This document shows positions 8,667 through 46,009 of a stretch of 64,000 nt of DNA, piece after piece. The stretch is taken from positions 1 through 64,000 of the forward strand of contig CAIPKV010000062.1 of the NCBI GenBank assembly GCA_903865745.1, written 5' to 3'. The stretch comes from an uncultured Verrucomicrobia subdivision 3 bacterium. GTDB lineage: Bacteria > Verrucomicrobiota > Verrucomicrobiia > Limisphaerales > UBA11358. Positions within the stretch are counted from its first letter, which is position 1. The number at the start of each line of letters is the position of its first letter. Both the position numbers and the translations under genes were made by a program. The notes below the pieces were generated by a model. The model did no database searches. It saw nothing but the letters and a program-made list of their open reading frames with translations, and was not told where the DNA came from.

Positions 8667-9947
8667 TCAGGCGCGGATTTGTCCGGTGCCGATGCCGAGC
8701 CATTTGTAGCTGGTCAATTCATCCAAGCCCATCGGGCCACGCGCGCCAATCTTGTCGGTGCTGATGCCAATCTCCGCGCCCATGCCGAACTCACCGCCGT
8801 CAGTGAAGCGCGTGCTGGCGTTCCAATACACCGCCGCCGAATCCACCTCGGCGAGGAACTGCTGCGCGTGCGTCTCATTCTTCGTGACGATGCTGTCCGA
8901 GTGCGCCGAGCCGTAAAAATTAATATGGTCGATCGCCGCGCGCACGCCCTCCACCACGCGCACATTCAGGATGTAATCGTTATACTCCGTGAAATAATCC
9001 TGCTCGGTAGCCGACTTAAGCCGCAGTTGAGGGTTGAGCGTTGAAAGTTGAGAGAAAGCAACCGCGTCGCAGCGTAGCTCGACTTTTTTATCAGCGAGTC
9101 GCTGCGCCATCGGCGGCAGAAACTTTTCCGCCACCGCCTGGTCCACGAGCAACGTCTCCGCCGCGTTGCAGACGCCGGGGCGCTGCACCTTGGCGTTCAG
9201 CACAATCTCCTCGGCCATCTTCAAATCCGCGTCGGCATCCACGAAGACGTGGCAGACGCCCTTGTAATGTTTGATGACCGGCACCTTCGAGCAGTCGGCC
9301 ACGGCGCGGATGAGGCTCTCGCCACCGCGCGGCATGCAGAGGTCAACGTATTGCGTGAGCGACAGCAAAATCGGTATCGCCTCGCGGTCGGGCGTGGGCA
9401 CCACCTGAATCGCGTGTTCGGGAAAGCCCTGGCAGGCGGCCTTGCCGGCGTCAATCATCACCCGGGCAATAATCTGATTGGAGTTCAACGCCTCCTTGCC
9501 GCCGCGCAGAATCGTCGCGTTGCCAGATTTGAAACACAGGCTCGCGGCATCCGCCGTCACATTCGGGCGCGATTCGTAAATGATGACCACCACGCCAATC
9601 GGCGTGGAAATCTTTTGCAGCTTGAGGCCGTTCGGGCGAAGGCGCTCGTCGAGAATCCGTCCCACCGGATCCGGCAGCGCCGCGACTTCGCGCAAACCTT
9701 TCGCCATGCCGGAAATTCTTTTGTCATCCAGCTTGAGCCGGTCGAGCATCGCGGACGAGAGGCCGTGGCTCGCGCCAAATTCCATGTCCAGCGCGTTGGC
9801 GGACTTGATGGCGTCGGCGTTTTGCTCCAACGCGGTGGCCATCGCGAGCAGGCAGGCGTTTTTCTCCGCCGTCGTGAGCTTCGCGAGTTCGCGCGACGCG
9901 GCCTTGGCCTGCTTGGCCAACCGCGTCATCTGTTCCGTCAAATTCAT
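8667..9947 (-). CDS. proA: Glutamate-5-semialdehyde dehydrogenase
   Basis: VDLCMPRGGESLIRAVADCSKVPVIKHYKGVCHVFVD and NASTRFTDGGEFGMGAEIGISTDKIGARGPMGLDELTSYKW; internal start MNLTEQM preferred. Confidence 0.95.
   Translation of the reverse strand: MNLTEQMTRLAKQAKAASRELAKLTTAEKNACLLAMATALEQNADAIKSANALDMEFGASHGLSSAMLDRLKLDDKRISGMAKGLREVAALPDPVGRILDERLRPNGLKLQKISTPIGVVVIIYESRPNVTADAASLCFKSGNATILRGGKEALNSNQIIARVMIDAGKAACQGFPEHAIQVVPTPDREAIPILLSLTQYVDLCMPRGGESLIRAVADCSKVPVIKHYKGVCHVFVDADADLKMAEEIVLNAKVQRPGVCNAAETLLVDQAVAEKFLPPMAQRLADKKVELRCDAVAFSQLSTLNPQLRLKSATEQDYFTEYNDYILNVRVVEGVRAAIDHINFYGSAHSDSIVTKNETHAQQFLAEVDSAAVYWNASTRFTDGGEFGMGAEIGISTDKIGARGPMGLDELTSYKWLGIGTGQIRA
9026..9053. repeat. 4 x 7-bp tandem micro-array (GTTGAgg) inside proA
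   Basis: gttgagg gttgagc gttgaaa gttgaga. Confidence 0.85.
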
Positions 9948-10022
9948 GGACGTCAAATTAACTGAATTACCCTGGAAGTCAAAAATCGGCATCGCCGCGC
10001 GCAACCACCCGCCGCACCCACG

Positions 10023-10697
10023 TCACTTCAAATTCATGTTGCCGCCGAGTACCGTTGTGAAGAAATCTCCGCCGCGCAGCGCCACCAGCACCGCCAGACC
10101 GGCGAGGTCGGCGGGCGTCTTCACATTTTTCATCACCAGATTATCAATGCCGATTTTCTGCGTGCGATTGTTACTGGGATTCTTCAAATCAATAAACCGC
10201 GCCGTGCCGACCGACACGTTCAGCGCATCGATGCCCTGAAAATCCAGCCCCGTCCGCTGCTTGAACTCTTTTAGCTGCTGGCTGTTCCCGCCCGCCGGGC
10301 TTTTGGTCGGCAGCGCGACGCCGAGCGCGAAGAGGTTCGTCTGGCCGGCCTCATTGCGCACGATATCGAGTTCGCCGAGATTGAAGCGCATGAGCGTGAG
10401 ATGAATTTTATTTTTCACCAGCGCGTCGCGGTCGTACTCCACATGAATTTCCGGAATGTTGAGAAACGGCGTGCCCCCGAACGCGGGCGGATTATAGATT
10501 TTAAAATCTGTGATCGTGATGACCGGCTCAATCAAGCCGAGATGAAACTTCCCAATCTCCGCGTCCATGCCCGTCTGCGCGCGAATCCGGTTTTCCGCCA
10601 CCACGCGCAGAATGGTATCCAGCGACAACAACAACCCCACCGCCAGCACCACAAGCAGCAGCACCAATACGAAGAACCATTTTAGAATTCGTTTCAT
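10023..10697 (-). CDS. AsmA-like / membrane-anchored hypothetical protein
   Basis: 224 aa; N-terminal TM helix, then RIRAQTGMDAEIGKFHLGLIEPVITITDFKIYNP. Confidence 0.65.
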   Translation of the reverse strand: MKRILKWFFVLVLLLVVLAVGLLLSLDTILRVVAENRIRAQTGMDAEIGKFHLGLIEPVITITDFKIYNPPAFGGTPFLNIPEIHVEYDRDALVKNKIHLTLMRFNLGELDIVRNEAGQTNLFALGVALPTKSPAGGNSQQLKEFKQRTGLDFQGIDALNVSVGTARFIDLKNPSNNRTQKIGIDNLVMKNVKTPADLAGLAVLVALRGGDFFTTVLGGNMNLK

Positions 10698-10704
10698 CCA
10701 GTTA

Positions 10705-10790
10705 TTTTCGATTTACGATCTACGATTTACGAGCGGCCATCGTGACACGGCCATTGTTTAAATCGTAAATCCAAAATCGTAAATCGTAAA
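10705..10790. repeat. Inverted pair of 4 x 7-bp arrays: (TTTACGA)4 - 30 bp - (TCGTAAA)4
   Basis: ttttcga tttacga tctacga tttacga at 10705-10732; tcgtaaa tccaaaa tcgtaaa tcgtaaa at 10763-10790. Confidence 0.9.
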
Positions 10791-11447
10791 TCACTCACCC
10801 ACATCTTCCGGGCGCACTTCCAGGCATTCATCCTGGTCCTCCCAGATGACCGCCGCGTAGCTATCCAGCAACTTCGGCGCGAGTTCGGCGCCGGCGATGG
10901 CCAGCAGCTTTTCCGCCGAGAGCGCCGCGTTCTCGTAGGCGGCATCGTAGTTGCCGATGCGCTTGCGCTGGCGATCATCCCAATGCGCCACGGCATGGAC
11001 CGGCTCATAATTCTTCGCCCACGGTTCGAGGACTTCGCGCAATTCCGCCGGCAACTCATCGAACGGCACCAGCACCTCATTGCAATGCTGGCAGATCAAA
11101 CCCTCCGTGCGGACATCGCGGGTGAGCAGCGGGAGGAACGGCGCGCGACAGCAAGCCGAGGCGGCGTAGGCGGCGGGCGGAGTGGCGAGGCGCTTGTGCC
11201 AGATTTGCCGGCCATGCGCGACTTGGGCGGCGAGGCGATACGCGCCGACGAGCGGATGCGACAGGCGCCACGCGCGCCCTTCCAGCTGGCCGAGCGTCTG
11301 GGCGAGCCAGCGGCCGAGCGTGAGATCATCCCACTCCGCGAAGGCGCGGCCGTATTCCGTCCACAACGAATCGAGCGGCGAATTGGCGGGCATATCCATC
11401 CGAGCAGTCTGGCGCGGAGGCGCGGATTTGTCGAGTGGCGTTGGCAA
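10791..11447 (-). CDS. Conserved hypothetical protein with CxxC (CQHC) motif
   Basis: 218-aa ORF, SLWTEYGRAFAEWDDLTLGRWLAQTLGQLEGRAW...GLICQHCNEVLVPFDELP. Confidence 0.6.
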   Translation of the reverse strand: MPTPLDKSAPPRQTARMDMPANSPLDSLWTEYGRAFAEWDDLTLGRWLAQTLGQLEGRAWRLSHPLVGAYRLAAQVAHGRQIWHKRLATPPAAYAASACCRAPFLPLLTRDVRTEGLICQHCNEVLVPFDELPAELREVLEPWAKNYEPVHAVAHWDDRQRKRIGNYDAAYENAALSAEKLLAIAGAELAPKLLDSYAAVIWEDQDECLEVRPEDVGE

Positions 11448-11500
11448 AGTCTTCCGTTCAGGCGCGCACCGGCGTATTTCTCCCGCGTCCCAATCTTTTT

Positions 11501-11773
11501 GCTGAGGAAAAATCCCATATTCATGCTGAAAAATCTCTCGGACTTACGGAAGTAAAACATTTTTATACGGATAAATTTCATTTTCTTCCGGAATATTCCC
11601 TTATTTATACGGAAGAATGTCGGGGACTTCCGCATAAATAGCATTTTTACGCGGAAGAAAATCGCGCATTTCCGGACAAATTTCATTTTATTGCGGATAA
11701 ATCCCATTTTCTTCCGTATGAAAATTGTATTTGTGCGGAAGAATCTCATATTTATCCGGAAGAAAATCATTTT
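11501..11773. repeat. Degenerate 21-bp tandem repeat array, AT-rich, about 13 units
   Basis: Units such as tatccggaagaaaatcatttt, tgtgcggaagaatctcatatt, tatacggataaatttcatttt, tacgcggaagaaaatcgcgca, in register at 21-bp steps. Confidence 0.93.
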
Positions 11774-11960
11774 ATTCCCGCCAAAAAACGTGGTTTTGTC
11801 CTGTCTTGGGACATATTTAACCCTAAAAAACAGTTTTACCGGTTTGGGACCCCTTTTTAGGCGCATTCCCGGTAAATCGTTCGCCGGGGCTTAAACCCGA
11901 TGGCTGTGAGATTTTTTAGCCGGGCTTAGCGCTTTCAAGTCTTGGCAACTTGGCGTTAAA

Positions 11961-12515
11961 TCATGTCGCCAGCGGTGCACCCACATTGAGGCCGTGCTTT
12001 AGGCAATACGCGCCGTTGTCCACATACTTCTGCGCCCACCATTTTAAACCGGCACGCTCTTCCTTGGTCAGCTGGCGCACCACCTTCGCCGGCGCACCCA
12101 GCACGAGGGAGCCGGGCGGGATTTTAACCCCCTGCGTCACCAGCGCCTTCGCGCCGATGATGGATTGTTTGCCAATGACCGCCCCATCCAATATCACCGC
12201 GCCCATGCCCACGAGCACTTCGTCGCCAATGGTGCACGCATGCACAATGGCGCTGTGGCCGATGGTCACCCAGTTGCCCACCACGCACGGATGCTTGTCC
12301 GCGAGGTGCAGCACGGCGTTGTCCTGCACGTTGGCATGGTGCCCGACGACGATGCGGTTGATGTCGCCGCGCAGCACCGCGCCATACCAGACGCTGCTGT
12401 GCGCGCCGAGCGTCACGTCGCCGAGGACCACGGCGGTCTTGGCGAGATAAACGTTCCGCCCAAGCTTGGGCGAGCGGCGGAGGAATTTTTCGAGCTGCGG
12501 CGCGAGTGCATTCAT
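11961..12515 (-). CDS. Gamma-carbonic-anhydrase-like hexapeptide-repeat protein
   Basis: Left-handed beta-helix repeats; GAVLRGDINRIVVGHHANVQDNAVLH...GHSAIVHACTIGD. Confidence 0.9.
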   Translation of the reverse strand: MNALAPQLEKFLRRSPKLGRNVYLAKTAVVLGDVTLGAHSSVWYGAVLRGDINRIVVGHHANVQDNAVLHLADKHPCVVGNWVTIGHSAIVHACTIGDEVLVGMGAVILDGAVIGKQSIIGAKALVTQGVKIPPGSLVLGAPAKVVRQLTKEERAGLKWWAQKYVDNGAYCLKHGLNVGAPLAT

Positions 12516-12528
12516 GAGGGGGAATTTA

Positions 12529-12638
12529 ACGCAAAGACGCTAAGCAGCAAAGTCGCAAAGGGAACTTGACAAAAACCAACGGGAGCCGTCAGCCTAGAAC
12601 CCAAAGCCTCGCGTCTTGGCACCTTGGCGTCTTTGCGT
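12529..12638. repeat. Inverted pair of 4 x 8-bp micro-arrays: ACGCAAAG-type and CTTTGCGT-type
   Basis: acgcaaag acgctaag cagcaaag tcgcaaag (12529-12560) and cctcgcgt cttggcac cttggcgt ctttgcgt (12607-12638). Confidence 0.88.
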
Positions 12639-12710
12639 TAAAAACTCTTCAGCGTGGCGTCGCATTTTCAAATTGGTCGGATGCGCGACCAGTGCTAGAG
12701 TCACGCCGTT

Positions 12711-13640
12711 GTGACGAAACCTGTTTCGAGCCGTCCTGTGCCGCCGCGCCGCAAGCTGCCGCGCTCGTTCAAGGATTTGACGCCGGCGAAGCATTTCAAC
12801 CCGCGCACGTTTTTTCAGGAAATGATCTGGAAGGGCTGGCTCACCAAACGCACGGGCACGCATCGGCCGCCGATTTTTCCCAAATTAAAACGCCGGCAGG
12901 TGGCCATTACGTGGATTGGGCACGCGTCGTTCCTCATTCAATTCACCGACCTGAATGTGCTGGTGGACCCGAACTTCGCCAACTGGCTGTTCCTCATGAA
13001 ACGGCTCAAGCGCGCCGGCCTGCGCCTCGGCGATCTGCCGCCAATCGATGTGGTGCTGCTGACGCACGCGCACTTCGACCATTTCCATAAGCCGACGCTG
13101 CGGCGGTTGCCGTCCACCAAGATCGGCGTGATGCCGTGGGGCGTGGGCGACCTCGCCAAAAATCTCGGCTTCGCGCGTGTGGTGGAGCTGGATTGGTGGG
13201 AAAGCTTTTCGCAGGGCGATTGGAAGGTGACGTTCACGCCGAGCCAACATTGGGGCGCGCGGACCTTGCACGATCAGCATCGCGGCTACGGCGGCTTCGT
13301 GCTGGAACATCAGGGCCGGAAAATCTATCACTGCGGCGACAGCGCGTACTTCGACGGCTTTAAGGAGATCGGCGAGAAGCTGCGCCCGGAAATCGCGCTG
13401 CTGCCCATCGGCGCGTATCATCCGGAAAGTTTCCGCAAGGTGCACATGGGGCCGGATGAGGCGGTGCGGGCGTTTCAGGATTTGCGCGCGAAAGTTTTTG
13501 TGCCGATGCATTTCGGGACGTTCAAGCTGTCGTTTGAGGCGATGGATGAGCCGCTGCGCTGGCTGAAGGAAATTACGGCGCAACAGAAACTGACGGCGCG
13601 CTTGAAAATTCTCGACGAAGGCGTGCCGAAGGTGTTTTGA
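12711..13640 (+). CDS. MBL-fold metallohydrolase (NAPE-PLD/UlaG-like)
   Basis: WIGHASFLIQF, LTHAHFDHFH, YHCGDSAYFDGFKEIGE. Confidence 0.9.
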   Translation: MTKPVSSRPVPPRRKLPRSFKDLTPAKHFNPRTFFQEMIWKGWLTKRTGTHRPPIFPKLKRRQVAITWIGHASFLIQFTDLNVLVDPNFANWLFLMKRLKRAGLRLGDLPPIDVVLLTHAHFDHFHKPTLRRLPSTKIGVMPWGVGDLAKNLGFARVVELDWWESFSQGDWKVTFTPSQHWGARTLHDQHRGYGGFVLEHQGRKIYHCGDSAYFDGFKEIGEKLRPEIALLPIGAYHPESFRKVHMGPDEAVRAFQDLRAKVFVPMHFGTFKLSFEAMDEPLRWLKEITAQQKLTARLKILDEGVPKVF

Positions 13641-13661
13641 TGGGCAAACTTATTTAGCACC

Positions 13662-15137
13662 ATGTTTGAATTTGAACTTCCGGAAAGATATCGCCATTAC
13701 ATCCCGCTCGCCGTCTGGGCCATCGTCGCGGCGGTACTGATTTTCATTCCGCTAAAGATTATTGAATGCGGTTATCTACCCGGCGATGATGCGCTGCGGC
13801 ATTGCGCCAAAGCCGTGAGCGGCAAGTCGTGGACGGATATTCTGGTGCTCAATAGTTCGTATCGGCTCGACCATAATCTCGGCTGGCATGCGCTGCTCGG
13901 CTTCATCCACCGCGCGACCGGCTGGGGCGCGGAAGGTCTTGTCATCCTGTGCGTCGTCGGCCTATTCATCGCGGCGAATGCGGCGCTGCTGCCGTGGCTG
14001 AAGCGGCCGGAGGCGTGGCTGGTCGCGCTGCTCGCCTCGATGATTGTGTCGGACTTGCCGCAGCGATTGCTGCTGGGTCGCCCGTTCGCGCTGACCATTG
14101 CGGTGCTGATGATTATTTTGTTCGTGGCCCAAAAAGCGCGACCGGACCGGAAACATTTTATTTTATTCACGGCGCTCATCACCTTCGCGATTCTTTTTCA
14201 CGGCGTCTGGTATCTGTGGGTGCTGCCGGTGGCGGCGTTTGCCTTTGCCGGGGAATTTGGCTGGGCGCTGCTGCTAGCGGGCGCGTGGCTGGCGGGTACT
14301 GCGCTAGCCGCGCTGTTGACCGGCCATCCGGCGGATTATCTATCACAGGCGGTGACCATGATGGTCGGGGCCTTCGGCCAGCACGCGACGAACCGGACGG
14401 AGGTCACGGAATTCCAGCCGTTCGCGGGTGATATTTTGGCGGTTGTCATCGTCGGCACGCTGGTGCTGCTGCGCTATGTGACCAAGCCGGACGCAGTAGC
14501 CTTCACGCGCAACCCGGCCTTCTGGCTCATGTGCGGTTGCTGGATGCTGGCGTTCCGCGTCGGCCGGTTTTGGGAAGATTGGGGCTGGCCGTCGCTGATG
14601 GTGCTGATTGTGGCGGAAATCGAATTTCTATTCCTCGCGAAGTTCACCGCCGATTCGACCAAGCGCCTGCTGCTGACACTCATCTTGGGGGCAGCCACCT
14701 TTCTCGCGGTCACGAGCGATTGGAATAGTCGTTACACAAAAAATCTGACGTGGCAGTTCCTCTCGGTGGCGGATCATCCCGAACTCGCCGGCTGGCTGCC
14801 AGACGACGGCGGTATTTTGTATGCCGCTGATATGGGAATTTTCTATCAGACCTTCTACAAAAATCCGAACGCCAACTGGCGCTACATCCTCGGCTACGAA
14901 CCGGCGCTGATGCCACCGGATGATTTTGCCACCTATCACAGCATTCAATGGAATAATGGCGATGCCAAAGCCTATCTGCCGTGGGTGGAAAAAATGAAGC
15001 CGGCCGATCGTCTTGTCATTGGCGGCAGCGGCGGCGAACGGCCAGACATTCCGCAACTGGAATGGAATTACGGTGTGAGCGGCCTCTGGATCGGGCGGTT
15101 GCCGGGCAATAACTTCCGCCTCGTGACGCCGCGCTGA
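13662..15137 (+). CDS. Multi-pass membrane protein, hypothetical
   Basis: 491 aa with many hydrophobic segments. Confidence 0.7.
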   Translation: MFEFELPERYRHYIPLAVWAIVAAVLIFIPLKIIECGYLPGDDALRHCAKAVSGKSWTDILVLNSSYRLDHNLGWHALLGFIHRATGWGAEGLVILCVVGLFIAANAALLPWLKRPEAWLVALLASMIVSDLPQRLLLGRPFALTIAVLMIILFVAQKARPDRKHFILFTALITFAILFHGVWYLWVLPVAAFAFAGEFGWALLLAGAWLAGTALAALLTGHPADYLSQAVTMMVGAFGQHATNRTEVTEFQPFAGDILAVVIVGTLVLLRYVTKPDAVAFTRNPAFWLMCGCWMLAFRVGRFWEDWGWPSLMVLIVAEIEFLFLAKFTADSTKRLLLTLILGAATFLAVTSDWNSRYTKNLTWQFLSVADHPELAGWLPDDGGILYAADMGIFYQTFYKNPNANWRYILGYEPALMPPDDFATYHSIQWNNGDAKAYLPWVEKMKPADRLVIGGSGGERPDIPQLEWNYGVSGLWIGRLPGNNFRLVTPR

Positions 15138-15196
15138 AACCAAGATGACCGGGGACCACGGCAATCTCAGCGCAATCACTCCCGCACGAAGCACCG

Positions 15197-16796: not shown

Positions 16797-16859
16797 ATTT
16801 GCTCCTGTTTGCTGTTGTTTCTAATTCATTGCCGCCAACGAAGCAAGCCGCTTTGCCAT

Positions 16860-18319: not shown

Positions 18320-18331
18320 CTTTACCACCCA

Positions 18332-20120: not shown

Positions 20121-20126
20121 ATCAAC

Positions 20127-22244: not shown

Positions 22245-23447
22245 ATGAAGCTGCTTGTCTTTGCCCACACGCCCCCGCCGCACCACGGCCAGAGCTACAT
22301 GGTGCAACTCATGCTCGAAGGCTTCGGCGGCGACGCGCGCAACAGAAAATCCTCCCCGCCCCATCCGCTCGGCCTCGAATGCTACCACGTCAACGCCCGC
22401 TTCTCGCGCGGGATCACGGACATTGGCGAATTGCAGGGCACCAAAATCCTCCTCATCTTCTGGTTTTGTCTGCAAGCCCTCTGGCTGCGGTTCCGTTACG
22501 ACGTCAAAAACTTTTACTACGTCCCCGCGCCCGGCAAGCGCGTCGCTCTTTATCGCGACTGGCTGGTAATGTTCCTGTGCCGGCCCTTTTTCAAGAACGT
22601 CATCCTGCACTGGCACGCCGCCGGCCTCGCCAAGTGGCTCGAGACCGAGGCGGTCATCGGCTTCCGCGCCGCGACCTACCGGCTCTTCCGGCCCGTTGAT
22701 CTCAGCCTTGTGCTCTCGCGCTACAACTTTGCGGATGCCGAAAAACTCCTCTCCCACCGCGTCTGCATCGTCAACAACGGCATTCCCGACCCCTGCCCCG
22801 ATTTTGAAAAAACCCTTCGCCCGCATCGCCGCAACCGCTTCGAACAGCGCCAGCGCCTCTTCAACGGCGAATTCTCCGGCCCGCCGATCACGGTGAACAT
22901 CCTCTATCTCGCCCATTGCACCCGCGAGAAAGGCCTCTTCGCCGCGATTGACGGCATCCTCGCCGCCAATCGCGAACTCGCGCACCGCAAGTTGCCCCTC
23001 CAGTTAAAATTCATCGCCGCGGGCAACTTCGTCACCGAAGCGGAGCAGGCCGATTTCAACGAACAGCTGCGCGACCCAGCCGTGGCGGCCGTCGTCAGCC
23101 ACGCCGGGTTCGTCTCCGGCGAGCGGAAGGAACAGCTCTACCGCGAGGCCGACCTCTTCCTATTTCCGACGCGCTACCTCGGCGAAAATCAGCCCGTCAA
23201 TCTCATCGAGGCGATGGCTTTTGGTCTGCCGCTGATCACCACCCGCTGGCGGTCGCTCCCCGAAATGCTGCCGCCGAACTATCCTGGCCTCGTGGCTGAC
23301 CAGGATGCGGACCCGATTGCCGCCGCCCTGGTAAAAGTCCTCGCCAGCGAAAGCGGCGAGCTGGTGCGCACCCGTTTTACCGACAACTTCACCATCGAGC
23401 GCCACCTCGCCACCCTCGCGGAAGCCCTCCACCGCGTTGAAGAATGA
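22245..23447 (+). CDS. GT4-type glycosyltransferase
   Basis: ADLFLFPTRYLGENQPVNLIEAMAFGLPLITTRWRSLPEM. Confidence 0.88.
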   Translation: MKLLVFAHTPPPHHGQSYMVQLMLEGFGGDARNRKSSPPHPLGLECYHVNARFSRGITDIGELQGTKILLIFWFCLQALWLRFRYDVKNFYYVPAPGKRVALYRDWLVMFLCRPFFKNVILHWHAAGLAKWLETEAVIGFRAATYRLFRPVDLSLVLSRYNFADAEKLLSHRVCIVNNGIPDPCPDFEKTLRPHRRNRFEQRQRLFNGEFSGPPITVNILYLAHCTREKGLFAAIDGILAANRELAHRKLPLQLKFIAAGNFVTEAEQADFNEQLRDPAVAAVVSHAGFVSGERKEQLYREADLFLFPTRYLGENQPVNLIEAMAFGLPLITTRWRSLPEMLPPNYPGLVADQDADPIAAALVKVLASESGELVRTRFTDNFTIERHLATLAEALHRVEE

Positions 23448-23448
23448 A

Positions 23449-23528
23449 TTTACGATTTGCGATATACGATTTACGATGCCGCTCCTTGTTCGTATGAGAC
23501 TCGTACATCGTAAATCATAAATCCGAAA
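23449..23528. repeat. Inverted pair of 4 x 7-bp arrays: (TTTACGA)4 - 24 bp - (TCGTAAA)4
   Basis: tttacga tttgcga tatacga tttacga (23449-23476) and tcgtaca tcgtaaa tcataaa tccgaaa (23501-23528). Confidence 0.9.
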
Positions 23529-25180
23529 TGAAGCTCGCCCTGCTCCAACTCAATCCGACCATCGGCGCCTTCGCGGCTAATCGCGAAAAACTGCTGCGCG
23601 CCTATGCCGACGCCGTGGCGCGCGGGGCGGAACTGGTGCTCGCACCGGAACTTTTCCTCTGCGGTTATCCGCCGCGCGATCTGCTGTTGCGCGACGATTT
23701 CATCGAGGCGAACCTCGCGGCCCTGCACGCGACCGCCGCCCAGATTGGGGCTGCCCCATTGGTTCTGGGCTACGTCGAAAGGAATTCGGAGCGGCCCGGT
23801 CGCGCCCTGCAAAACGCCGCCGCCGTCTTGCAACAGGGAAAAGTCATCTGGCGCACCGCCAAAAGCCTGCTGCCCACGTACGATGTCTTTGACGAAGACC
23901 GCTATTTCGAGCCGGCCAAAAAAGTTGAACCGTTTGTTTTCAACGGCCTCAAGCTGGGCATCACCATTTGCGAGGACATCTGGAACGACGAAGATTTCTG
24001 GCCAGAACGACTGTATCGCCGCGACCCCGTGAAGGAACTCGTCGCGCAAGGCGCGCAGATGATTCTGAACCTTTCCGCGTCGCCCTGGCACGACGGCAAG
24101 CAGCAGACGCGCCTCGAGATGCTGCGCCGCGTCGCGCGCGATGAGCAGGTGCCGCTCGCGCAGGTCAATGCCGTCGGCGCGAATGACGAGCTGATATTTG
24201 ACGGCCACAGCGTCGCGCTGGACGCGCGCGGCGAAGTGCTGGCGCTCGGCAAAGGGTTTGCGGAAGACATTTTGGTGGTGGAACTGGGCGAAGTCCAAAG
24301 TCCAAGGTCCAAAGTCCAAACGGAGTTCCCCGTGCGCGAAGAACTTTTGTTCTCCGCGCTGTCGCTGGGCATCCGCGATTACGTGCACAAGTGCGGGTTC
24401 AAGTCGGTCATCCTCGGATTGTCCGGGGGCATCGACTCCGCGCTCATAGCGGTCATCGCGGCCGACGCGCTGGGCGCGGAAAATGTCCGGGGCGTCTCCC
24501 TGCCCGCGCGGTATTCGAGCAGCGGCAGTTTGACGGACGCCGAAAAGCTCGCGCACAATCTTGGCCTCCATTACGACGTCCTGCCGATTGAGCCGGTGTT
24601 CAACGCGGTCGAGGCGCAGTTGAAAAATGTTTTTGCGAATACCAAGCCCAATGAGGCGGAGGAAAACATCCAGTCGCGGCTGCGCGGCGTGACGCTGATG
24701 GCGCTCTCCAATAAATTCGGGGCGCTCGTCCTGACCACCGGGAACAAGTCCGAGATGGCCGTGGGTTATTGCACGCTGTACGGCGACATGAACGGCGCGC
24801 TCGCACCCATCGCCGATGTGCTGAAGACGGACGTTTACAAAATCGCGCAGTGGGTCAACCGCGACCGGGAGATCATCCCGGTGGATTCGATTACCAAGCC
24901 GCCGAGCGCGGAGCTGCGCCCGGGCCAGACGGATCAAGATTCTTTGCCGCCGTATGAAATTCTCGATGCAATTCTGGACAGCTACGTCGTCAAGAACTTG
25001 AGCAAAGCGGAAATAATTGCGCGCGGCTTTGACGCGGCGGTCGTCAACGACGTGGTGAACAAAATCAACTTCAGCGAATACAAGCGGCGGCAGGCCGCGC
25101 CGGGGCTCAAAGTCTCGCCGCGCGCCTTTGGCATGGGCCGGCGCATCCCGGTGGCGCAGAAATTTCGGACGCCCGCTTAA
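23528..25180 (+). CDS. nadE: Glutamine-hydrolysing NAD+ synthase
   Basis: N-terminal nitrilase-like domain, C-terminal ILGLSGGIDSALIAVIAADALG, TGNKSEMAVGYCTLYGDMNG. Confidence 0.95.
   Translation: MKLALLQLNPTIGAFAANREKLLRAYADAVARGAELVLAPELFLCGYPPRDLLLRDDFIEANLAALHATAAQIGAAPLVLGYVERNSERPGRALQNAAAVLQQGKVIWRTAKSLLPTYDVFDEDRYFEPAKKVEPFVFNGLKLGITICEDIWNDEDFWPERLYRRDPVKELVAQGAQMILNLSASPWHDGKQQTRLEMLRRVARDEQVPLAQVNAVGANDELIFDGHSVALDARGEVLALGKGFAEDILVVELGEVQSPRSKVQTEFPVREELLFSALSLGIRDYVHKCGFKSVILGLSGGIDSALIAVIAADALGAENVRGVSLPARYSSSGSLTDAEKLAHNLGLHYDVLPIEPVFNAVEAQLKNVFANTKPNEAEENIQSRLRGVTLMALSNKFGALVLTTGNKSEMAVGYCTLYGDMNGALAPIADVLKTDVYKIAQWVNRDREIIPVDSITKPPSAELRPGQTDQDSLPPYEILDAILDSYVVKNLSKAEIIARGFDAAVVNDVVNKINFSEYKRRQAAPGLKVSPRAFGMGRRIPVAQKFRTPA
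24293..24320. repeat. 4 x 7-bp tandem micro-array (GTCCAAA) inside nadE
   Basis: gtccaaa gtccaag gtccaaa gtccaaa. Confidence 0.93.
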
Positions 25181-25716: not shown

Positions 25717-25817
25717 TTATTGCGATAAACTCTTAATTCTCAGCGTAAAGACCGAATTACCGAAGCCAAGGTTACTTGAGATAAGTGCAATAATCCATTC
25801 ATCTCTGGCGTCAAACC

Positions 25818-26090
25818 GGCTAAAAGAGCGTCCGGCGTGACTCCGAAGACGCGCGGCGTCGCTCGAACACCGCGCGGCGCGACTCCGAACCTCGGCGGCG
25901 CGGCTCGAAAGGCGTCCGGCGCCGCTCCGAAGGTGCGCGGCGTGACTCGAAAGGTCGCCGGCGTGGCCCCGAAGACGCACGGCGCGGCTCAAAACCTCCC
26001 CGGCGCGGCCCCGAAGTCATCCGGCGCGACTCGAAAGGTGCGCGGCGCTGCTCCGAAGACGCGCGGCGTGACTCCGAACCCGTCCGGCGC
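25818..26090. repeat. Degenerate 21-bp tandem repeat array, GC-rich, about 13 units
   Basis: Units such as gactccgaagacgcgcggcgt, ggctcgaaaggcgtccggcgc, cgctccgaaggtgcgcggcgt, gactcgaaaggtgcgcggcgc, in register at 21-bp steps. Confidence 0.95.
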
Positions 26091-31916: not shown

Positions 31917-31933
31917 AAATCTAACATTTTAAA
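31894..31933. repeat. 5 x 8-bp tandem micro-array (AAGCTGAA-type)
   Basis: aagctgac atttcaaa aagctgaa aatctaac attttaaa. Confidence 0.7.
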
Positions 31934-32496
31934 GCCACAAGGTCAGCGGCGGCGACAGACTTATCGCCGTACATTCTTTCCAGCGCCTCCTCGACGGACG
32001 GGCCGGTCCAATAGCCCGGACGATCCTCGGGCCGGGGACGGCGGCGGGGTTCATCACCAAAGGGCAGGCCGATGGCGAGGCACTTCAACTTAAAGGCCAT
32101 CTCCGTGAGGCGGCAAATTTGCGGCAGGGACATTTGATGACGGCGCGGGTTGGTCGCCCGTTTCAGCCACTCTTTCGAGGCCTGAATCACCGCCTGCGCG
32201 AGCTGAAATTCCTGGAGCCGGAAATTTTCAAGATCCGACTTGGAGGTGGTGATGGCGCGCTGAATCACGTCATCCAAGGCGGACTGCGTGGCATCCGCGA
32301 GGCGGGTTTCGAAAGCAGCGACGCGCCCGGGCCAGTTGAATTTTGCCGAGAGGCGGCGGATGGCACCTAGCGGCCGACCGGTCGCTTCGGCGGTGGTGCG
32401 GTGGGAGCGCCGCCCCTTGAGCCGCAGATAAGCGGCGAAAGCGATAAAGTCGGCGGGCGATTCGCCGGGTTGGAGCTGCCAGAGACGAGGAGGCAT
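31921..32496 (-). CDS. Phage terminase small-subunit-like DNA-binding protein (hypothetical)
   Basis: WQLQPGESPADFIAFAAYLRLKGRRSHRTTAEATGRPLGAIRRLSAKFNWPGRVAAFETRLAD pattern. Confidence 0.6.
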   Translation of the reverse strand: MPPRLWQLQPGESPADFIAFAAYLRLKGRRSHRTTAEATGRPLGAIRRLSAKFNWPGRVAAFETRLADATQSALDDVIQRAITTSKSDLENFRLQEFQLAQAVIQASKEWLKRATNPRRHQMSLPQICRLTEMAFKLKCLAIGLPFGDEPRRRPRPEDRPGYWTGPSVEEALERMYGDKSVAAADLVALKC

Positions 32497-32501
32497 GAGA
32501 A

Positions 32502-32529
32502 GTGTTGAGTGTTGAGTTTTAAGTTATGA
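32502..32529. repeat. 4 x 7-bp tandem micro-array (GTGTTGA-type)
   Basis: gtgttga gtgttga gttttaa gttatga. Confidence 0.7.
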
Positions 32530-36564: not shown

Positions 36565-36568
36565 ACTA

Positions 36569-37819: not shown

Positions 37820-37922
37820 AACAAGTTTAGAACTGAGCCAAGCCGAGTCTGGCGACCGACGCGGTCAAAAGGTAATTCCTTGTGACCCAGCAGGGCAGAC
37901 CTTATTTTAACCGCCCGACCTG

Positions 37923-38783: not shown

Positions 38784-38818
38784 ATTTTAATACGGCCTGA
38801 AGGATTATCAAGCAAGCC

Positions 38819-39748
38819 ATGAAACGAGCCTTAATCGCGACCCTGTTCAACGAGGCGGACAATGTGTCCCGCTGGTGGGATTGTCTGATGCGGCAGACCG
38901 TGTGGCCGGATGAAATCGTCATAGTAGACGGCGGCTCGACCGACGGCACCTGGGAAGCACTTCAGGAACTCGCTCGGCAATCGCCGATACCAGTGAAGCT
39001 GGAGCAGCGGCGCTGCAATATCGCCGCCGGCCGTAATCAGGCTATCCGTTTGACCGACGCAGACATTATTGCCGCCACGGACGCGGGCAGTTTTCCTGAA
39101 CCAGAATGGTTCCACGAAATCATCCGGCCCTTGCTGGAGGATGACAGTGTGGACTGCGTTGGAGGCCTGAATGTTTCCGATCAGGAAAATGCTTTTTCAA
39201 ACTATCTAGCACTATTCGAACCACGAACGGATTTGGAGGCAGCCATAGCCGCTGGCAACACCGAAGTACACCCCTCTTCGCGCAACATTGCGTTTCGCCG
39301 GGCAGCGTGGGCGGCTGTGGGCGGCTACCCGGAATGGCTGACGTTAGCTGCCGAAGATACTCTATTTAATTGCGAATTACACGTCGTCGGAAAAAAATTT
39401 CTGCTTAATAAAAAGGCGGTCGTTCATTGGTCGGTGCGCGACAGTGCGGAAGCCTACTTGAAGCTGCTTTATCGGAATGCCTACGGCTCGGCGGAGGCAC
39501 GGCTGGATGCGTCCTATTTTTTACGAAAATCGTTGATCACATTTTTTCCACCGCTGCTGCTGCTCTCGCGCCACCGATTCCGGCACCTGAAATTTCGCTA
39601 TGGCAAAAACGCGGCCAGCACCCGGGGCTGGCTGGCGGGTTATTTCAAAGGTAATAAACCGCCAATCGGCTGGAAACGGGTGGATGGAGTGTTGTTAAGC
39701 CCCGAAGCGCAGAGTTATTTGGCAAACAATCGACATCGGCATGAATGA
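38819..39748 (+). CDS. GT2 glycosyltransferase
   Basis: IATLFNEADNVSRWWDCLMRQTVWPDEIVIVDGGSTDGTWEAL. Confidence 0.92.
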   Translation: MKRALIATLFNEADNVSRWWDCLMRQTVWPDEIVIVDGGSTDGTWEALQELARQSPIPVKLEQRRCNIAAGRNQAIRLTDADIIAATDAGSFPEPEWFHEIIRPLLEDDSVDCVGGLNVSDQENAFSNYLALFEPRTDLEAAIAAGNTEVHPSSRNIAFRRAAWAAVGGYPEWLTLAAEDTLFNCELHVVGKKFLLNKKAVVHWSVRDSAEAYLKLLYRNAYGSAEARLDASYFLRKSLITFFPPLLLLSRHRFRHLKFRYGKNAASTRGWLAGYFKGNKPPIGWKRVDGVLLSPEAQSYLANNRHRHE

Positions 39749-39780
39749 AGAACGCCTTAGCCGGAACCGGGCAGTTCAAC

Positions 39781-39810
39781 CACGAATGGACACGGATGGA
39801 CACAGATGCG
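39781..39810. repeat. 3 x 10-bp micro-array (CACGGATGGA)
   Basis: cacgaatgga cacggatgga cacagatgcg. Confidence 0.88.
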
Positions 39811-39916
39811 GCTGGTTCAAATTGAGGCAACCGGACCCACTGTTCGGAGTGAGGGTGGGTTTACAGGCACTACCAGTTGGCAAAGTGAACCGCAATAATA
39901 CTAGCGAGCAATAAAA

Positions 39917-41068
39917 ATGAACCCTCCCTTAAAAGTTCTGCTGGCCAGCGCCGGCGGCTGGCATCTGCGAAGCACCGCCCGGGCATTCGCGGAACGCGAC
40001 GCCCTAGCCGGATTATGGATTACGGGCAAAAACAACACGGGGATTTCGACGGAACATTTCCGGCGGGGCTGGCCGTTTCATCTGGGCTTGAAACCCTTCC
40101 TGCATGGGGCCCCGCAAATCTGGAGTGAGCGGATGTTTTATGCGCTATTTCCGCTTTGGAAGAGCTGGTTTTTGGCGCAGCGCTTCCCTGATTGCAACGT
40201 GGTGCAGGCCATCATGGGCTTTGCCACCGAGCCGTTTGACCGTGCAGAAAAAAACGGCGCCTTAAAAGTCGTGGATTGTCCGAACAGCCATCCCACGAGC
40301 TACTACGGCTACTGGCAGCGCGAATGCGACCTTTGGTGTCCGGGCGAAAAAGTCCCGATCCCGCAATGGATGTTTGCGCGTATGAACCGCGAGCTGGAAC
40401 GCGCCGATTTAGTGCTGTGTCCTTCCGACTTCGTACGCGACACGATGCGCCTGAACGGCATCCCCGCCGAAAAATGTTTTGTGAACCCCTTTGGCGTAGA
40501 TACCAGTACGTTTCGACCGCGTGAAACTGTCCCTGAAAAAATCCGTTTTGTCGCCATCGGCACGCTTTGTTTACGCAAAGGCTACCAGTACCTATTCCGG
40601 GCGTTTGAAATTGTAAAAACAAAACTACCGGAAGCCGAACTAGTCTGCGTCGGCGAACTTAAAGCCGACCTTCGGCACGAACTAAAGAAATGGCGGGAAA
40701 CTTTTTCCCATCTGCCGCATACCCCCCACGCGGAGCTGGCTAAACTGCTGGCGACCGGCACGGCCTTGGTCATGCCGTCCCAAGAAGAAGGCTTTGCCCG
40801 TGTGCTGTCCGAGGCGATGGCGGCGGGCCTGCCGATATTGGCCTCCTACGAAAGCGGCGCAACCACTTTAGTGGAAGACGGTGTGGAAGGTTTCATCGTA
40901 CGCGGGCGCGACCCGCAGCACATTGCCGAGGCGATGATTCGCGTGGCGACTGACCGGGAGCTGAACCACCGGCTGGGCGAGGCCGCATATGCCAAAGGTG
41001 CCATCAAGAACACCTGGCAGGATTACGGCGACCGACTACTGGCGGAATATGCCAAGCGGTTAAACTAA
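39917..41068 (+). CDS. GT4-type glycosyltransferase
   Basis: TALVMPSQEEGFARVLSEAMAAGLPILASYESGATTLVEDGVEGFIV. Confidence 0.92.
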   Translation: MNPPLKVLLASAGGWHLRSTARAFAERDALAGLWITGKNNTGISTEHFRRGWPFHLGLKPFLHGAPQIWSERMFYALFPLWKSWFLAQRFPDCNVVQAIMGFATEPFDRAEKNGALKVVDCPNSHPTSYYGYWQRECDLWCPGEKVPIPQWMFARMNRELERADLVLCPSDFVRDTMRLNGIPAEKCFVNPFGVDTSTFRPRETVPEKIRFVAIGTLCLRKGYQYLFRAFEIVKTKLPEAELVCVGELKADLRHELKKWRETFSHLPHTPHAELAKLLATGTALVMPSQEEGFARVLSEAMAAGLPILASYESGATTLVEDGVEGFIVRGRDPQHIAEAMIRVATDRELNHRLGEAAYAKGAIKNTWQDYGDRLLAEYAKRLN

Positions 41069-41149
41069 AAGCTGACGCTGAAAAGATAAAGAAGGAAGGG
41101 TACCGCCAAGCAAACCCAGACGTTTAGAAACGATTATCTGCTATTTCTC

Positions 41150-41911
41150 CTAACCTTTCGGAGTAGCTACGAGCCAGCCGATGTCGGGGCAACGCCGTTC
41201 GGACATTAACAGGCGGGATATAATCGGTAGCCGGAACAGCCACGGTACATTGGGCGAAATGTCTTGGCGGCGGCGGCGTGTGGGCCGGAGATCGGCGACA
41301 GCATGAGTCATGGCGAGGGCTTTTGCCAGCCCTGCGCGCACACCGGGAACAAAATAGTCATGCGTTTCAATCAAAAAAAAGGCGTTAGGACACAGTTTTA
41401 GGGTTTGAATATCCAGCAGCTTGCCCTCGAAACCTTCGCAATCGCTTATGATTAGGAGCCGGAAATCCGGATCAGCTGGCAAGGAACTTAAGAGCGTCTG
41501 GAGCCCGGCAACCGTACATTCGCCCCGGATTTCAATACGGTCCGGCGGCACAGCATTTCGCCGGACATTGGCCAGCAGATTTTTCCGCCCAGCTTCGGCC
41601 ATTTCAAACGCAACCACCTTCTGAGCCAGGCGGCGATGCAGGAAACCAACGGCATACCAGCCTTCGGCCGCCCCGATATCAATGACCAGGTCAAAAACCG
41701 GGAGTTGTCCCAGCCAGACATGGAGTTCCGACTCATAAGTGCCCAGCAGCTTAGGAGTCAACACACTGCAATTGGCGACCGAACCCCAGCACATTCCTTG
41801 GAAAGGTCCACCCCGGATGTTCCAAATTTTCCGGGAGCGGAGCACGCATTGGACGCAAAAATCAAAGCACCAAAATAGGCTCCTGTAAAATAATGCTTTA
41901 ACTTTGGACAT
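41150..41911 (-). CDS. FkbM-like methyltransferase, distant paralog of 35743-36564
   Basis: LVIDIGAAEGWYAVGFLHRRLAQKVVAFEMAEAGRKNLLANV; ISDCEGFEGKLLD. Confidence 0.78.
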   Translation of the reverse strand: MSKVKALFYRSLFWCFDFCVQCVLRSRKIWNIRGGPFQGMCWGSVANCSVLTPKLLGTYESELHVWLGQLPVFDLVIDIGAAEGWYAVGFLHRRLAQKVVAFEMAEAGRKNLLANVRRNAVPPDRIEIRGECTVAGLQTLLSSLPADPDFRLLIISDCEGFEGKLLDIQTLKLCPNAFFLIETHDYFVPGVRAGLAKALAMTHAVADLRPTRRRRQDISPNVPWLFRLPIISRLLMSERRCPDIGWLVATPKG

Positions 41912-41992
41912 GCTGGTGAATCTTCCGGATTTATAAGTTTACTGGCAAGCGGCAAATCAGTTCCACTGCTTGAACCCTATTGTATTTCCTGA

Positions 41993-43159
41993 TTATCGGT
42001 GCGGTTTGATTAGTAGTTCCTGATAAATCTCCAAATGCCGCCGGGCGATGACTTCGGGATGATAGCGTTGGCGCATGGTTTCGGCAGCCTGGCGGGGCGA
42101 GGGCGAATCCGCCGTCAGCCAGCGGGCCAAGGCATTTTCCAAACCGGTGTAATCGTCCGGCGCAAACAACTCCGCGCTGTCCACGCGGCTGGCGATTTCA
42201 GCCACTCCACCCACGCCGGCACCGAAAAATTTCAGGTTGCGCGCCAGCCCCTCGGCCACCACCAAGCCGAAGGCTTCCTCGGTCGGAAAATGAATCAGAG
42301 CCGCCGCTTGGTCCATGGCGGCGATGAGCTGTGGCGCAGTCAGTACGCCCAGATTACGCGCATAACCGGCGGCTTCGGCCGATGCCAGTTCGCGGTTAAA
42401 CGCGACGCCGTAGGCTGATTTCGGCGCGAGGTCGCCGACAAACTGCCATTCGAACTTCAGGCCACGCCGGTGAAGGTTGCGGGCTAAGGCGAGCAGTTCC
42501 AACTGCTGTTTGCGCGGCTGCAGGATGCCGACGTTCAGCAGTGCCGGAACGCCCGTTGGTTTTGAGGCCGGCACATTGTTAAAAAATTCCAAGCGCAGGG
42601 CATTCGGTACCCGCCAGGTTTTGGGCGCGAGGGGGGCGACAAGATTTTCAGTGTAGGCAGAATTGCAAAACACGCCGCCGGTGCGGCGCAGCGTAAAATC
42701 CTCCAGCTTCGCCGTCAGCCAGTAGTAATCCCCAAATCGCGCCTTAAAGATCGGCGCGATGGCCCGCATGTTGCCGTGAATGGTCACGACGCTGGGAAAG
42801 CCGGAAAACACCGCGCTGATGGCGCAGTCCCGTTCCGTACCCTGAGCATGGACGACATCCGGTTGCAGTTCGCGCAGTTTTTTCCGAGTGGCGCGGATGC
42901 AGCCCTGATACAGGGTCCGGAGCCAGCCCAACTTTGGTACCAGCAACTGGTGATAAAAGATGTTCGGGGCGATTTTAGCGGGCGAGCGCACCGGCTGCTG
43001 CACACAGGAGACGACATGGATTTCCACTTCCGGCAGTCCCGCGAAGCCTTGCAGCAGCGCCTCGGGCGCGGTGCCAAGGCTGGGCAGCGGCCCGTCATAC
43101 TGGCCACCGGGAACGCGGGCGTCCGTGGTCAGCAGGGCGATTTTTAAAGGCCGGCTCAT
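41993..43159 (-). CDS. GT4-type glycosyltransferase
   Basis: PDVVHAQGTERDCAISAVFSGFPSVVTIHGNMR...AALIHFPTEEAFGLVVAEGLARNLKFFGAGVGGVAEI. Confidence 0.92.
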   Translation of the reverse strand: MSRPLKIALLTTDARVPGGQYDGPLPSLGTAPEALLQGFAGLPEVEIHVVSCVQQPVRSPAKIAPNIFYHQLLVPKLGWLRTLYQGCIRATRKKLRELQPDVVHAQGTERDCAISAVFSGFPSVVTIHGNMRAIAPIFKARFGDYYWLTAKLEDFTLRRTGGVFCNSAYTENLVAPLAPKTWRVPNALRLEFFNNVPASKPTGVPALLNVGILQPRKQQLELLALARNLHRRGLKFEWQFVGDLAPKSAYGVAFNRELASAEAAGYARNLGVLTAPQLIAAMDQAAALIHFPTEEAFGLVVAEGLARNLKFFGAGVGGVAEIASRVDSAELFAPDDYTGLENALARWLTADSPSPRQAAETMRQRYHPEVIARRHLEIYQELLIKPHR

Positions 43160-44325
43160 CGCAGAAAGACCTCCTTACCGGGCAATCGACTGCGCAAGCC
43201 GAAGGGCAGGCGTTCCAGCAGCCCACGAGGCACGGGCATCCGTTGGGACCGGCTTGGGGCAGCTTCGATTTTTTCCAGTTCCGCCAGCAGCGTTGCCATA
43301 AATACATCCGGCCGCCGATTCGCGACCAGCTCCTGAATCTTTGGGCGCTGGGCAGCACCCCGGGCTGACTTCATTAAATCGCGAATCAACGCCGCCGCTG
43401 CCGCCAGGTCGCCTTTGGGGTACTGCGGAAATTTATTCGTCCGCAGCAGTTCCGTGGCCTGGCAGGGGATGGCTGGCATGATGGGCGGCACGCCGGCGGC
43501 CATGGCTTCCAGCGCCACCAGCGGACCAGTTTCATACTCGCTGGTGCAGACCAGAAAATCCCAGCGGCCATAGGTTGCGGCCATCTGCCGCTCGTCCAGT
43601 CGCCCGAGAAAACGCACATTACGGCCCGCCAGCTTTTGCCGCAGGCCAGCCTCGGCAGGCCCGGTACCGGCAATTTCGAGCCGGTATTTAACACCCAGCA
43701 GATCCAATTGCGCGGCGAGTTCCACCAGGCGTCCGACACGTTTCTGGTCCACTTCCAAACGTCCTGAATAGCCAATCACCAACGCTTCGGAATCTCTTTG
43801 CGCGGGTGCGTCGAAAAAGCTTTCGCTCAAAGGATACTCCAGCGCGGTCACGGGTACGTTACAAGCTGGAAGTTTTTGGAGCTGCCGCGCCAGGTCAGCG
43901 CCGCTGGCCAGGATAGCGTCGAGATAACGAATCCGCTGCGGCAGCAGCGCAAAGACGTCCGCACTGTTGGTGTGGAGGTAGAGGACGCTTCGCCGGTGTG
44001 GAATACTGCCGCCCAGCATGGTCAGGCCGGCGAAATTATGGAATACCAGCGTATCCGCCGTCACGCGCTGCGGCAGCAGCTGGGCGCGGGCGGCCACGGC
44101 GTTCATCGAGCGGTCCGGACGCAGCCGGATAATCTGCGAATTTTCCGACGGACCCGTGTCGAGCAGGCTGATAGCCCCGCTGGACGGGTCATGCCGCACC
44201 ATGAGTTTTACCAGCGTCTCCAGGCCGCCCAAACGGTCTAACGAAGCGGAAAGGTGCAGCCGCCGGAAATGGCGCGCGCCCGCCGAAGGCGATATTTCGG
44301 GATGATTTGGGGCTGGCGGCGGCAC
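43156..44325 (-). CDS. GT4-type glycosyltransferase
   Basis: DFLVCTSEYETGPLVALEAMAAGVPPIMPAIPCQATELL; ATGA overlap with 41993-43159. Confidence 0.9.
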   Translation of the reverse strand: MPPPAPNHPEISPSAGARHFRRLHLSASLDRLGGLETLVKLMVRHDPSSGAISLLDTGPSENSQIIRLRPDRSMNAVAARAQLLPQRVTADTLVFHNFAGLTMLGGSIPHRRSVLYLHTNSADVFALLPQRIRYLDAILASGADLARQLQKLPACNVPVTALEYPLSESFFDAPAQRDSEALVIGYSGRLEVDQKRVGRLVELAAQLDLLGVKYRLEIAGTGPAEAGLRQKLAGRNVRFLGRLDERQMAATYGRWDFLVCTSEYETGPLVALEAMAAGVPPIMPAIPCQATELLRTNKFPQYPKGDLAAAAALIRDLMKSARGAAQRPKIQELVANRRPDVFMATLLAELEKIEAAPSRSQRMPVPRGLLERLPFGLRSRLPGKEVFLR

Positions 44326-44358
44326 GGGCGCGATTATGGAAACGGGCTAAGCGGCGGT

Positions 44359-44554
44359 CAATCGTTTAGGATAAAAAGCTGAAAAACTGAAATACTTAAA
44401 AACTAAAATCGGGAAGCGGAATTTAATCGCCAAGACACCAAGAACGCCAAGTTTTTATAAGGAAGCTAGGAAGGCAGGAATTAAAATCTGCCACAGAGAC
44501 ACAGAGACTAGCAGAAAGTAGAAAGCTGAAACTCCGAAAAGCTGAAATCTTAAA
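44359..44554. repeat. Composite micro-array cluster, left flank of GT2 gene
   Basis: tcaatcgtttaggataaaa; 4x8 at 44376-44407; 3x9 at 44427-44453; 3x8 at 44461-44484 and 44492-44515; 4x8 at 44523-44554. Confidence 0.85.
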
Positions 44555-44693
44555 TCAGGCAAGGACGGGTTGGCGCGGGCACCAGACGCTATTCCGTTCG
44601 ACAAATTCAAAGAGGTATTTAGACTGGAATAATGATTTTTACGGAGATAATTCAGCGGGGCAAGATAACCAAACTGTTGGTTTTACGGGCAGC

Positions 44694-45752
44694 ATGAGCC
44701 AGCCCGTCGTCAGCTTCATCGTCCCGGCCTACAACTCGGCGGCCTATCTTAAGGCGTTTTGTGAATCCATCCTCGCCCAGACGTTCCCGGATTTTGAGGT
44801 GCTGATTGGGAATGACGGCTCGACCGACCACAGCGAAGAAATCCTGCAACCTTATTTACGCGATCCGCGTTTCCGGCTGATTGGCTGGCGCCCTAACCGG
44901 GGGATGCACTACGGCGTCACGGTGTTGCTCAACGCGGCGCGCGGCACCTACTGGTGTCCGCCCGGCACGGATGATATTTTGGATCCGCGCCTGCTGGAAC
45001 GCCGGGTGGCGCGGCTGGCAGCGCGGCCGGAAGCCGTCTTAATCCATGGGCCGGCGCATTGGATTGACGAGCGTGACCAGCCTTACGTCACGGATATCAC
45101 CGGGCGGGCGCTCCCCGAACTTAGTCGCCGGCTGCCGGAAACCATGCCGGCAGAACGCATGCTCCGTATTTTACTGCAACACAATCTGATCAACTGGCCG
45201 TCCACACTGGTGCGGCTGGATTTAACCCGGCAGGTCCTGCCCTATTTTGCACCCTACTGGCAACATACCATGGACTGGTCGCTGTGGCTCATGCTGGCGG
45301 CCACCGGCTTTGATTTTCTTTGGGATGCCGAGCCGATGATCCAATACCGGATGCATAGCCAGTCGCTGAGCGGATCGCCGCAGAAAAAAACCATCCGGCA
45401 AATTGAACGCAAGCTAACGCCGCTCCATGCGCTTTACACGGCCAGTCTTTATTCACCTCTGGCAAAAGCCGTCTGGCTGGAACAGCGCACGTCACTTTAC
45501 CGCTGGTGGCTGGTTACGGCCGCCGCTTTGCGCCGACAGGGGGCGCTTAAGCCCCGCGATCTACTGCTCGCCGCCGCCGCCTATCGGGGCGGATTACCGC
45601 AGCCAGTAAGTTTGAGTAAGGAACTGGCCAGCCACGGTCTGCCGGCCATTTTACAATACCGGCGGGAGAAGGCCGCCAACCAGCACCAACTTTTCGAAGT
45701 TTGCGGCTTTTCCCTGATCGACGATCCCGTGTTCCGCCAGGTAAGGGATTGA
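44694..45752 (+). CDS. GT2 glycosyltransferase
   Basis: VVSFIVPAYNSAAYLKAFCESILAQTFPDFEVLIGNDGSTDHSEEIL. Confidence 0.93.
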   Translation: MSQPVVSFIVPAYNSAAYLKAFCESILAQTFPDFEVLIGNDGSTDHSEEILQPYLRDPRFRLIGWRPNRGMHYGVTVLLNAARGTYWCPPGTDDILDPRLLERRVARLAARPEAVLIHGPAHWIDERDQPYVTDITGRALPELSRRLPETMPAERMLRILLQHNLINWPSTLVRLDLTRQVLPYFAPYWQHTMDWSLWLMLAATGFDFLWDAEPMIQYRMHSQSLSGSPQKKTIRQIERKLTPLHALYTASLYSPLAKAVWLEQRTSLYRWWLVTAAALRRQGALKPRDLLLAAAAYRGGLPQPVSLSKELASHGLPAILQYRREKAANQHQLFEVCGFSLIDDPVFRQVRD

Positions 45753-45774
45753 AAAAGGAAAAAGCAGAAACAAG

Positions 45775-46009
45775 AGGCTGAAAAACTTAAAAGCTGAAAA
45801 GCTCAAATAAGGCGGAAAGTAACCGCCAAGTCGCCAAGGCCGCTAAGTTTTTAATAACGAAGGCAGGAAGACAGGAATTAAAAACGGCCACAGACTCAGA
45901 GATACAGGGACAAGCAGGTCATTTCAATCGTTTAGGATAAAAAAAGCTAAAAAACTTAAATCGGGTAGTGGAATTTAACGCAAAGGCGCAAAGACCCAAA
46001 GGCGCCAGG
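45775..46009. repeat. Composite micro-array cluster, right flank of GT2 gene
   Basis: 4x8 at 45775-45806; 3x9 at 45822-45848; 3x8 at 45859-45882 and 45889-45912; tcaatcgtttaggataaaaa at about 45924; 4x8 ACGCAAAG-type at 45978-46009. Confidence 0.85.

Follow-up and report, generated by a model that had tools for sequence, protein, structure and literature searches.

Can short tandem arrays keep a constant total length whatever the length of their unit, and how would such arrays originate? This question was raised by the window, the whole stretch of 64,000 nt that was analyzed, in which a sequence-only reading had listed about 20 micro-array sites with three to four units of 7–10 bp and had suggested a size-constrained process behind them. 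The host is an uncultured bacterium, and its nearest named relatives are metagenome genomes of Verrucomicrobiota subdivision 3 (Limisphaerales/Pedosphaera). Its genus is represented by at least 49 species in the genome collection. Every listed site was read and scanned for tandem repeats, and a census of arrays was taken from genome stretches of relatives.

The arrays are real and far above chance expectation. In the window, 13 arrays exceeded a simple periodicity score versus 2.1 in shuffles, and with a stricter score (at least 10) the numbers were 10 versus 0.55 ± 0.67 in dinucleotide shuffles. A sample of 0.85 Mb from four species contained 49 arrays of period 7 versus none in three shuffles, and the surplus was present in every species sampled; the other periods up to 14 bp, from 8 bp onward, were rare. 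The shuffles thus ruled out chance or composition as the source, and the array density far exceeds the composition-matched null that the sequence-only reading had proposed for comparison. One relative (G001) contained 68 arrays with 33 canonical words in 0.70 Mb, and its arrays were dispersed genome-wide. Close relatives had about 80 heptamer arrays per Mb, and in small samples of remoter members of the order and class the density was about 9–26 per Mb.

The individual sites did not yield uniform results. The periodicity scan recovered all period-7 sites (9026, 10705, 10763, 23449, 23501, 24293 and 32502), the octamers at 44376, 45775 and 45978 (score 9) and the decamer at 39781. All 9-bp sites failed the scan on their own, as did 12529, 12607, 31894, 33673, 33847, 44461, 44492, 44523, 45859 and 45889. 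Furthermore, many of the sites are not separate instances. Three couples are the arms of inverted pairs (10705/10763, 23449/23501 and 12529/12607), a composite element is present twice, at 44376–44547 and 45775–45915 (79% identity), and 33673 and 33847 resemble two copies of one element of about 45 bp.

Two heptamer arrays of the window are located in frame within genes. Four GTCCAAA units at 24291–24320 (plus strand) occupy the interdomain linker of nadE (ORF 23528–25180, plus strand) and encode EVQSPRSKVQT, and four units at 9025–9054 (minus strand) encode SQLSTLNPQL in a gene of the aldehyde dehydrogenase family (8667–9992, minus strand). Between a glycosyltransferase gene and nadE, four ATTTACG units at 23448–23477 (plus strand) form the left arm of an inverted pair, and the TCGTAAA-type right arm at 23501–23523 (minus strand) lies directly before the nadE start codon; the region 23446–23527 folds into a hairpin (z = -3.5). 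A second pair is situated between two minus-strand genes, with four ATTTACG units at 10704–10732 (plus strand), 7 bp from the start of 10023–10697, and about five TAAATCG units at 10759–10792 (minus strand), and its hairpin has a z of -7.0. A further heptamer array at 32501–32528 (minus strand) lies 5 bp away from the start of 31921–32496 (minus strand).

Longer units were found in other contexts. Four octamers of ACGCAAAG at 12529–12560 (plus strand) lie between divergent genes and have an inverted partner at 12611–12640 (minus strand), and 12527–12646 folds with z = -4.6. Three decamers of the CACRGATGRA family at 39781–39808 (plus strand) are preceded by TTCAAC. The composite intergenic element at 44374–44554 (plus strand) is built of AGCTGAAA, CGCCAAG, GGAAGGCA and CACAGAGA blocks, the order of which is fixed, its parts are scattered through the genus, and its second copy is at 45775–45915 (plus strand). 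The octamer array AACGCAAAGGCGCAAAGACCCAAAGG at 45975–46022 (plus strand) was the most widely matched part of a 2-kb query across the genus. The window also contains an imperfect array with nested periods of 21, 42 and 84 bp at 25817–26090 (CGGCGCGGCTCCGAAGACGCG type), the total length of which is unlike that of the short arrays, and repeats with periods of 21 and 42 bp at 11558–11775 (TCCGGAAGAAAATC type).

The placement of the arrays was analyzed in a pooled sample, which includes some orthologous copies, with gene calls from a simple in-house model. About half of the arrays were intergenic and nearly half lay within genes, and their size was alike in both locations. Neighbors with the same word at most 300 bp apart were inverted in 18 cases and direct in none. 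For 26 of the 57 intergenic arrays an inverted partner was present, usually at a distance of 20–48 bp. Intergenic arrays adjoined start codons, according to these gene calls often with a distance of exactly 5 bp, and often formed hairpins that span the interval from a stop codon to the following start codon. Most of the pairs tested fold into strong hairpins, with z values down to -7.3; a junction element (L182) folds no better than shuffled sequences. Within genes, the arrays were mostly single arms in frame that add about 10 residues, e.g., in nadE, trpD, ribD, an aminotransferase gene, a gene of the uracil-DNA glycosylase family and an addB-type gene, among others. A fixed reading frame was considered and rejected: six of the seven AATCCGC arrays in genes of G001 read SAIRNPQSAI, but the frame varies in other species. 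Most relatives have retained an inverted pair of TTTACGA arrays, about 79 bp long, between two divergent start codons (L165–L184, L104 and L105); in L165–L184 its position is mostly around 8.6 kb of the locus, ahead of nadE (10001). The promoters must therefore lie inside this pair or overlap it.

Next, the length of the arrays was quantified. The 98 heptamer arrays had a mean of 29 bp, 45 of them (46%) measured 29–32 bp, and none exceeded 39 bp; a geometric tail would give about 15 arrays of at least 40 bp. AATCCGC was the only heptamer word counted across all 49 genomes of the genus that had enough hits to show the ceiling. Its perfect runs comprised four units in 45 cases, three in 25 and five in two, and longer runs did not occur. 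Continuation past four units was observed in 2 of 47 runs versus 47 of 72 past three (p = 3e-12), and in the five three-unit cases that were inspected with their flanks a degenerate further unit was present. Nearly all AATCCGC arrays begin at AAT and finish at AAT, i.e., at a constant point of the unit, and 26 exact matches were found in G001 versus none in 31 genomes. The decamer family with a TTTAAC-type upstream flank showed a similar ceiling, with three units in 28 cases, two units in 14 and never four or more in 2.94 Mb. Octamer arrays were few and variable (20–43 bp), nonamers were mostly coding repeats near the detection threshold, and arrays of 21-bp units were far longer (53–197 bp). 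A constant total length thus applies to units of 7 and 10 bp, but not to octamers or 21-bp units. Moreover, picking sites with three to four units of 7–10 bp leads to totals of 21–40 bp by selection alone, and part of the length pattern originally noticed follows from this choice.

Orthologous sites were compared between species, the closest of which differ by about 8% in nadE; with a divergence of at least about 8% between relatives, clean single events are rare. The cleanest case was the trpD linker, which has 63 nt with (AATCCGC)4 in G001 and 30 nt without the array in G025, the nearest relative compared. The empty linker has 27–30 nt across relatives, and the array of G001 is a clean insertion of 33 bp relative to G025. 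The seed heptamer is absent at the empty trpD site of G025, and no conserved target could be read from this single clean event. Nine other species have trpD linkers of 45 nt, 15–18 nt longer than the empty form, and most of these contain in-register heptamers of different words. In ribD, linkers of 54 nt with four in-register units occur in many species, and the G025 linker has 33 nt with one unit, i.e., it is 21 bp shorter. The nadE linker has an empty form of 39 nt in many relatives, and its occupied forms mostly have 48–57 nt with at least six words, and non-sister species can have the same word. The gain in nadE is thus 9–18 nt and not about 31, which indicates that these arrays are not simple insertions or were trimmed afterwards. 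In G030 and G031, the nadE units read x x y z and x' y y z, respectively, so that one unit was duplicated and one was lost at constant number.

Empty sites were also found at gene junctions. L182 contains an inverted pair of about 100 bp between stop and start codon, and at least four relatives have a spacer of 6 bp instead. The rnc junction is similarly occupied in G001 and short in G025 and G041. In G031 and G041, the layout of an inverted pair is kept with both arms of another word. A target-site duplication was not visible in the trpD and L182 events, the flanks of which have diverged.

Other elements were observed at the same positions. In non-sister species, REP-like hairpins (GGTGGGGCGAG...CTCGCCCCACC) take the in-frame positions that arrays hold elsewhere, namely in the nadE linkers of L031, L039 and L056, and nadE linkers with such hairpins have about 69–96 nt. 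Another form of REP-like hairpin (GTAGCAGCCGRCGTGAG...) occurs in L040 and L044. At the ribD site, REP-like hairpins are found in the array position in L299, L304 and L307, and a palindrome-like piece of 29 bp (CGGCGCGCACGGAGTGACGCRCC) is present in G030 and G041 (L305 and L309); the sister species G031 (L310) has a heptamer array.

Our tentative explanation, which we regard as the most probable one, is that these are dispersed short tandem repeats of the heptamer type familiar in cyanobacteria and Xanthomonas, which spread as whole cassettes of about 30 bp and are then remodeled in place. A new array would arrive as a complete cassette that comprises four heptamers or three decamers. It would either enter a protein gene in frame, as one arm, where a loop or linker tolerates it, or come as an inverted pair that forms a hairpin of about 80–110 bp and fills a stop-to-start gap. 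Arrival as a cassette is favored by the clean insertion in trpD, by the recurring point of the unit at which AATCCGC arrays begin and end, and by the spread of this word in some species only; the cassette was probably copied from elsewhere in the genome; that many words occur once per genome is by itself no proof of copying. Subsequently, units would mutate, duplicate, get lost and homogenize, possibly by gene conversion or paired slippage, so that the word changes and the unit number stays. The in-register word change points to such remodeling, but it could equally reflect repeated replacement by new arrays. Within genes, heptamers can be gained or lost only by threes (21 bp), and thus the reading frame would hold the unit number; for hairpins, base pairing between the arms may have this effect. 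Insertion of a fixed-length piece was the best of the three ideas of the sequence-only reading, but remodeling in place had to be added to it.

Alternatively, a size-measuring process might write cassettes of about 31 bp (four 7-mers or three 10-mers), irrespective of the word, at tolerated positions, core genes included, and later overwrite the same place at the same length with other words. We regard this as possible, but fairly unlikely. A size-constrained process fits the copy ceilings of heptamers and decamers, the fixed ends of AATCCGC and the 33-bp insertion in trpD, but fails at other periods. A fixed protein footprint as the ruler is unsupported, given the great diversity of the words.

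It is rather unlikely that the arrays are plain microsatellites, made and resized by slippage, with period 7 favored by the size of the polymerase-DNA contact and with long arrays deleted. The four versus one units in ribD and the shifted units of G030 versus G031 do look slippage-like, and the polymerase-contact hypothesis has been reported for bacterial heptamer repeats (Rehm 2015, PMC4692102). However, the lack of a long-array tail, the constant start and end points within the AATCCGC unit, the missing seed at the empty trpD site and the presence of one word at unrelated loci in some species only argue against it. We are similarly doubtful that the arrays are selected functional elements, i.e., junction hairpins in transcription termination, RNA processing or translation with an arm length set by selection. 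Proximity to start codons, the strong folds and the TTTACGA pair kept between divergent genes would agree with this, and a translational role has been proposed for similar TAACTGA repeats (MacGregor 2015, PMC4679880). Yet, nearly half of the arrays lie within genes, mostly as single arms, the words are extremely diverse, the occupancy of a given junction differs between related species, and the L182 element lacks a fold better than chance.

Mobilization by Y1 (RAYT/REP-type) transposases, with the arrays as a kind of REP element, appears very unlikely. PF01797 matches were found in 44 of 49 genomes, and in other species the array positions of nadE and ribD are held by REP-like hairpins, but no conserved tetranucleotide or fixed hairpin lies beside the arrays, and G007 and G016, both incomplete drafts, bear nadE arrays and have no Y1 match. 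Y1 transposases are widespread, but apparently not tied to the arrays. Telomerase-like synthesis of a repeat oligonucleotide from an RNA template, followed by insertion, would yield a short-unit run of fixed length anchored at both ends as in the AATCCGC arrays, but it is highly improbable, as dozens of words would demand dozens of templates, and templated synthesis by a reverse transcriptase is disfavored by the lack of an RVT_1 match in the array-rich G001 and in the genome of the window, each of which is about 97% complete.

Heptamer repeats of bacteria have been noted for decades without a mechanism. The genus offers a natural experiment: across about 50 related species, nadE, trpD and ribD carry a same-sized array of different words or none, and this makes slippage, copying and selection directly testable. 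The arrays also show a route by which core enzymes can gain about 10 residues at once, and they are a warning that such inserts will often be encountered when sequences of this group are aligned or their genes called.

The cyanobacterial heptanucleotide STRR sequences of Calothrix and Nostoc/Anabaena are dispersed tandem heptamers with few consensus words, and they reportedly occur within RNase P RNA (Vioque 1997). They resemble the arrays described here in being tandem, dispersed and inserted also into a conserved gene. In contrast, their words are few and fixed, while one stretch of the G001 genome contains at least 33, and here many core enzymes have in-frame arrays. REP/BIME and the Rickettsia palindromic elements are dispersed hairpins between genes, and the latter also occur in frame within genes. 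These have a conserved palindromic sequence, whereas the arms described here consist of tandem units with variable words; a tetranucleotide plus fixed palindrome was not common to the array flanks examined. In comparison to MITEs, the word in the arms of the inverted pairs varies between copies.

Bacteria have an excess of heptamer repeats, and the GGGAATC repeats of Xanthomonas most commonly have four units and many inverted neighbors (Rehm et al. 2015, PMC4692102). The likeness to our arrays includes the mostly four heptamers, the close inverted pairs and the differences between related species. However, GGGAATC in Xanthomonas and GGGGAYT in Nostoc form arrays of up to 26 units, 89–93% of which are intergenic (Rehm 2015, PMC4692102), whereas here the ceiling is about five units and nearly half are in genes. 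In addition, those repeats have one G-rich word capable of quadruplex formation, while here the words are many, and the main ones (AATCCGC, AACATCC, AAATCGT and AAAGCGG) have no GGG runs and thus lack the G-tracts of a quadruplex. The TAACTGA repeats of Beggiatoaceae precede start codons with 2–6 copies of one word, mostly in one orientation (MacGregor 2015, PMC4679880). They share with our arrays the position just upstream of start codons and the low copy number, but differ in the single word and orientation, and we did not find in-gene arrays with changing words mentioned there. Reports of such arrays in Verrucomicrobia were not found in the literature searched. New aspects are the occurrence in this phylum, the large number of words, the strict upper limit of size, the many in-frame positions within core enzymes and the change of word at constant number across relatives.
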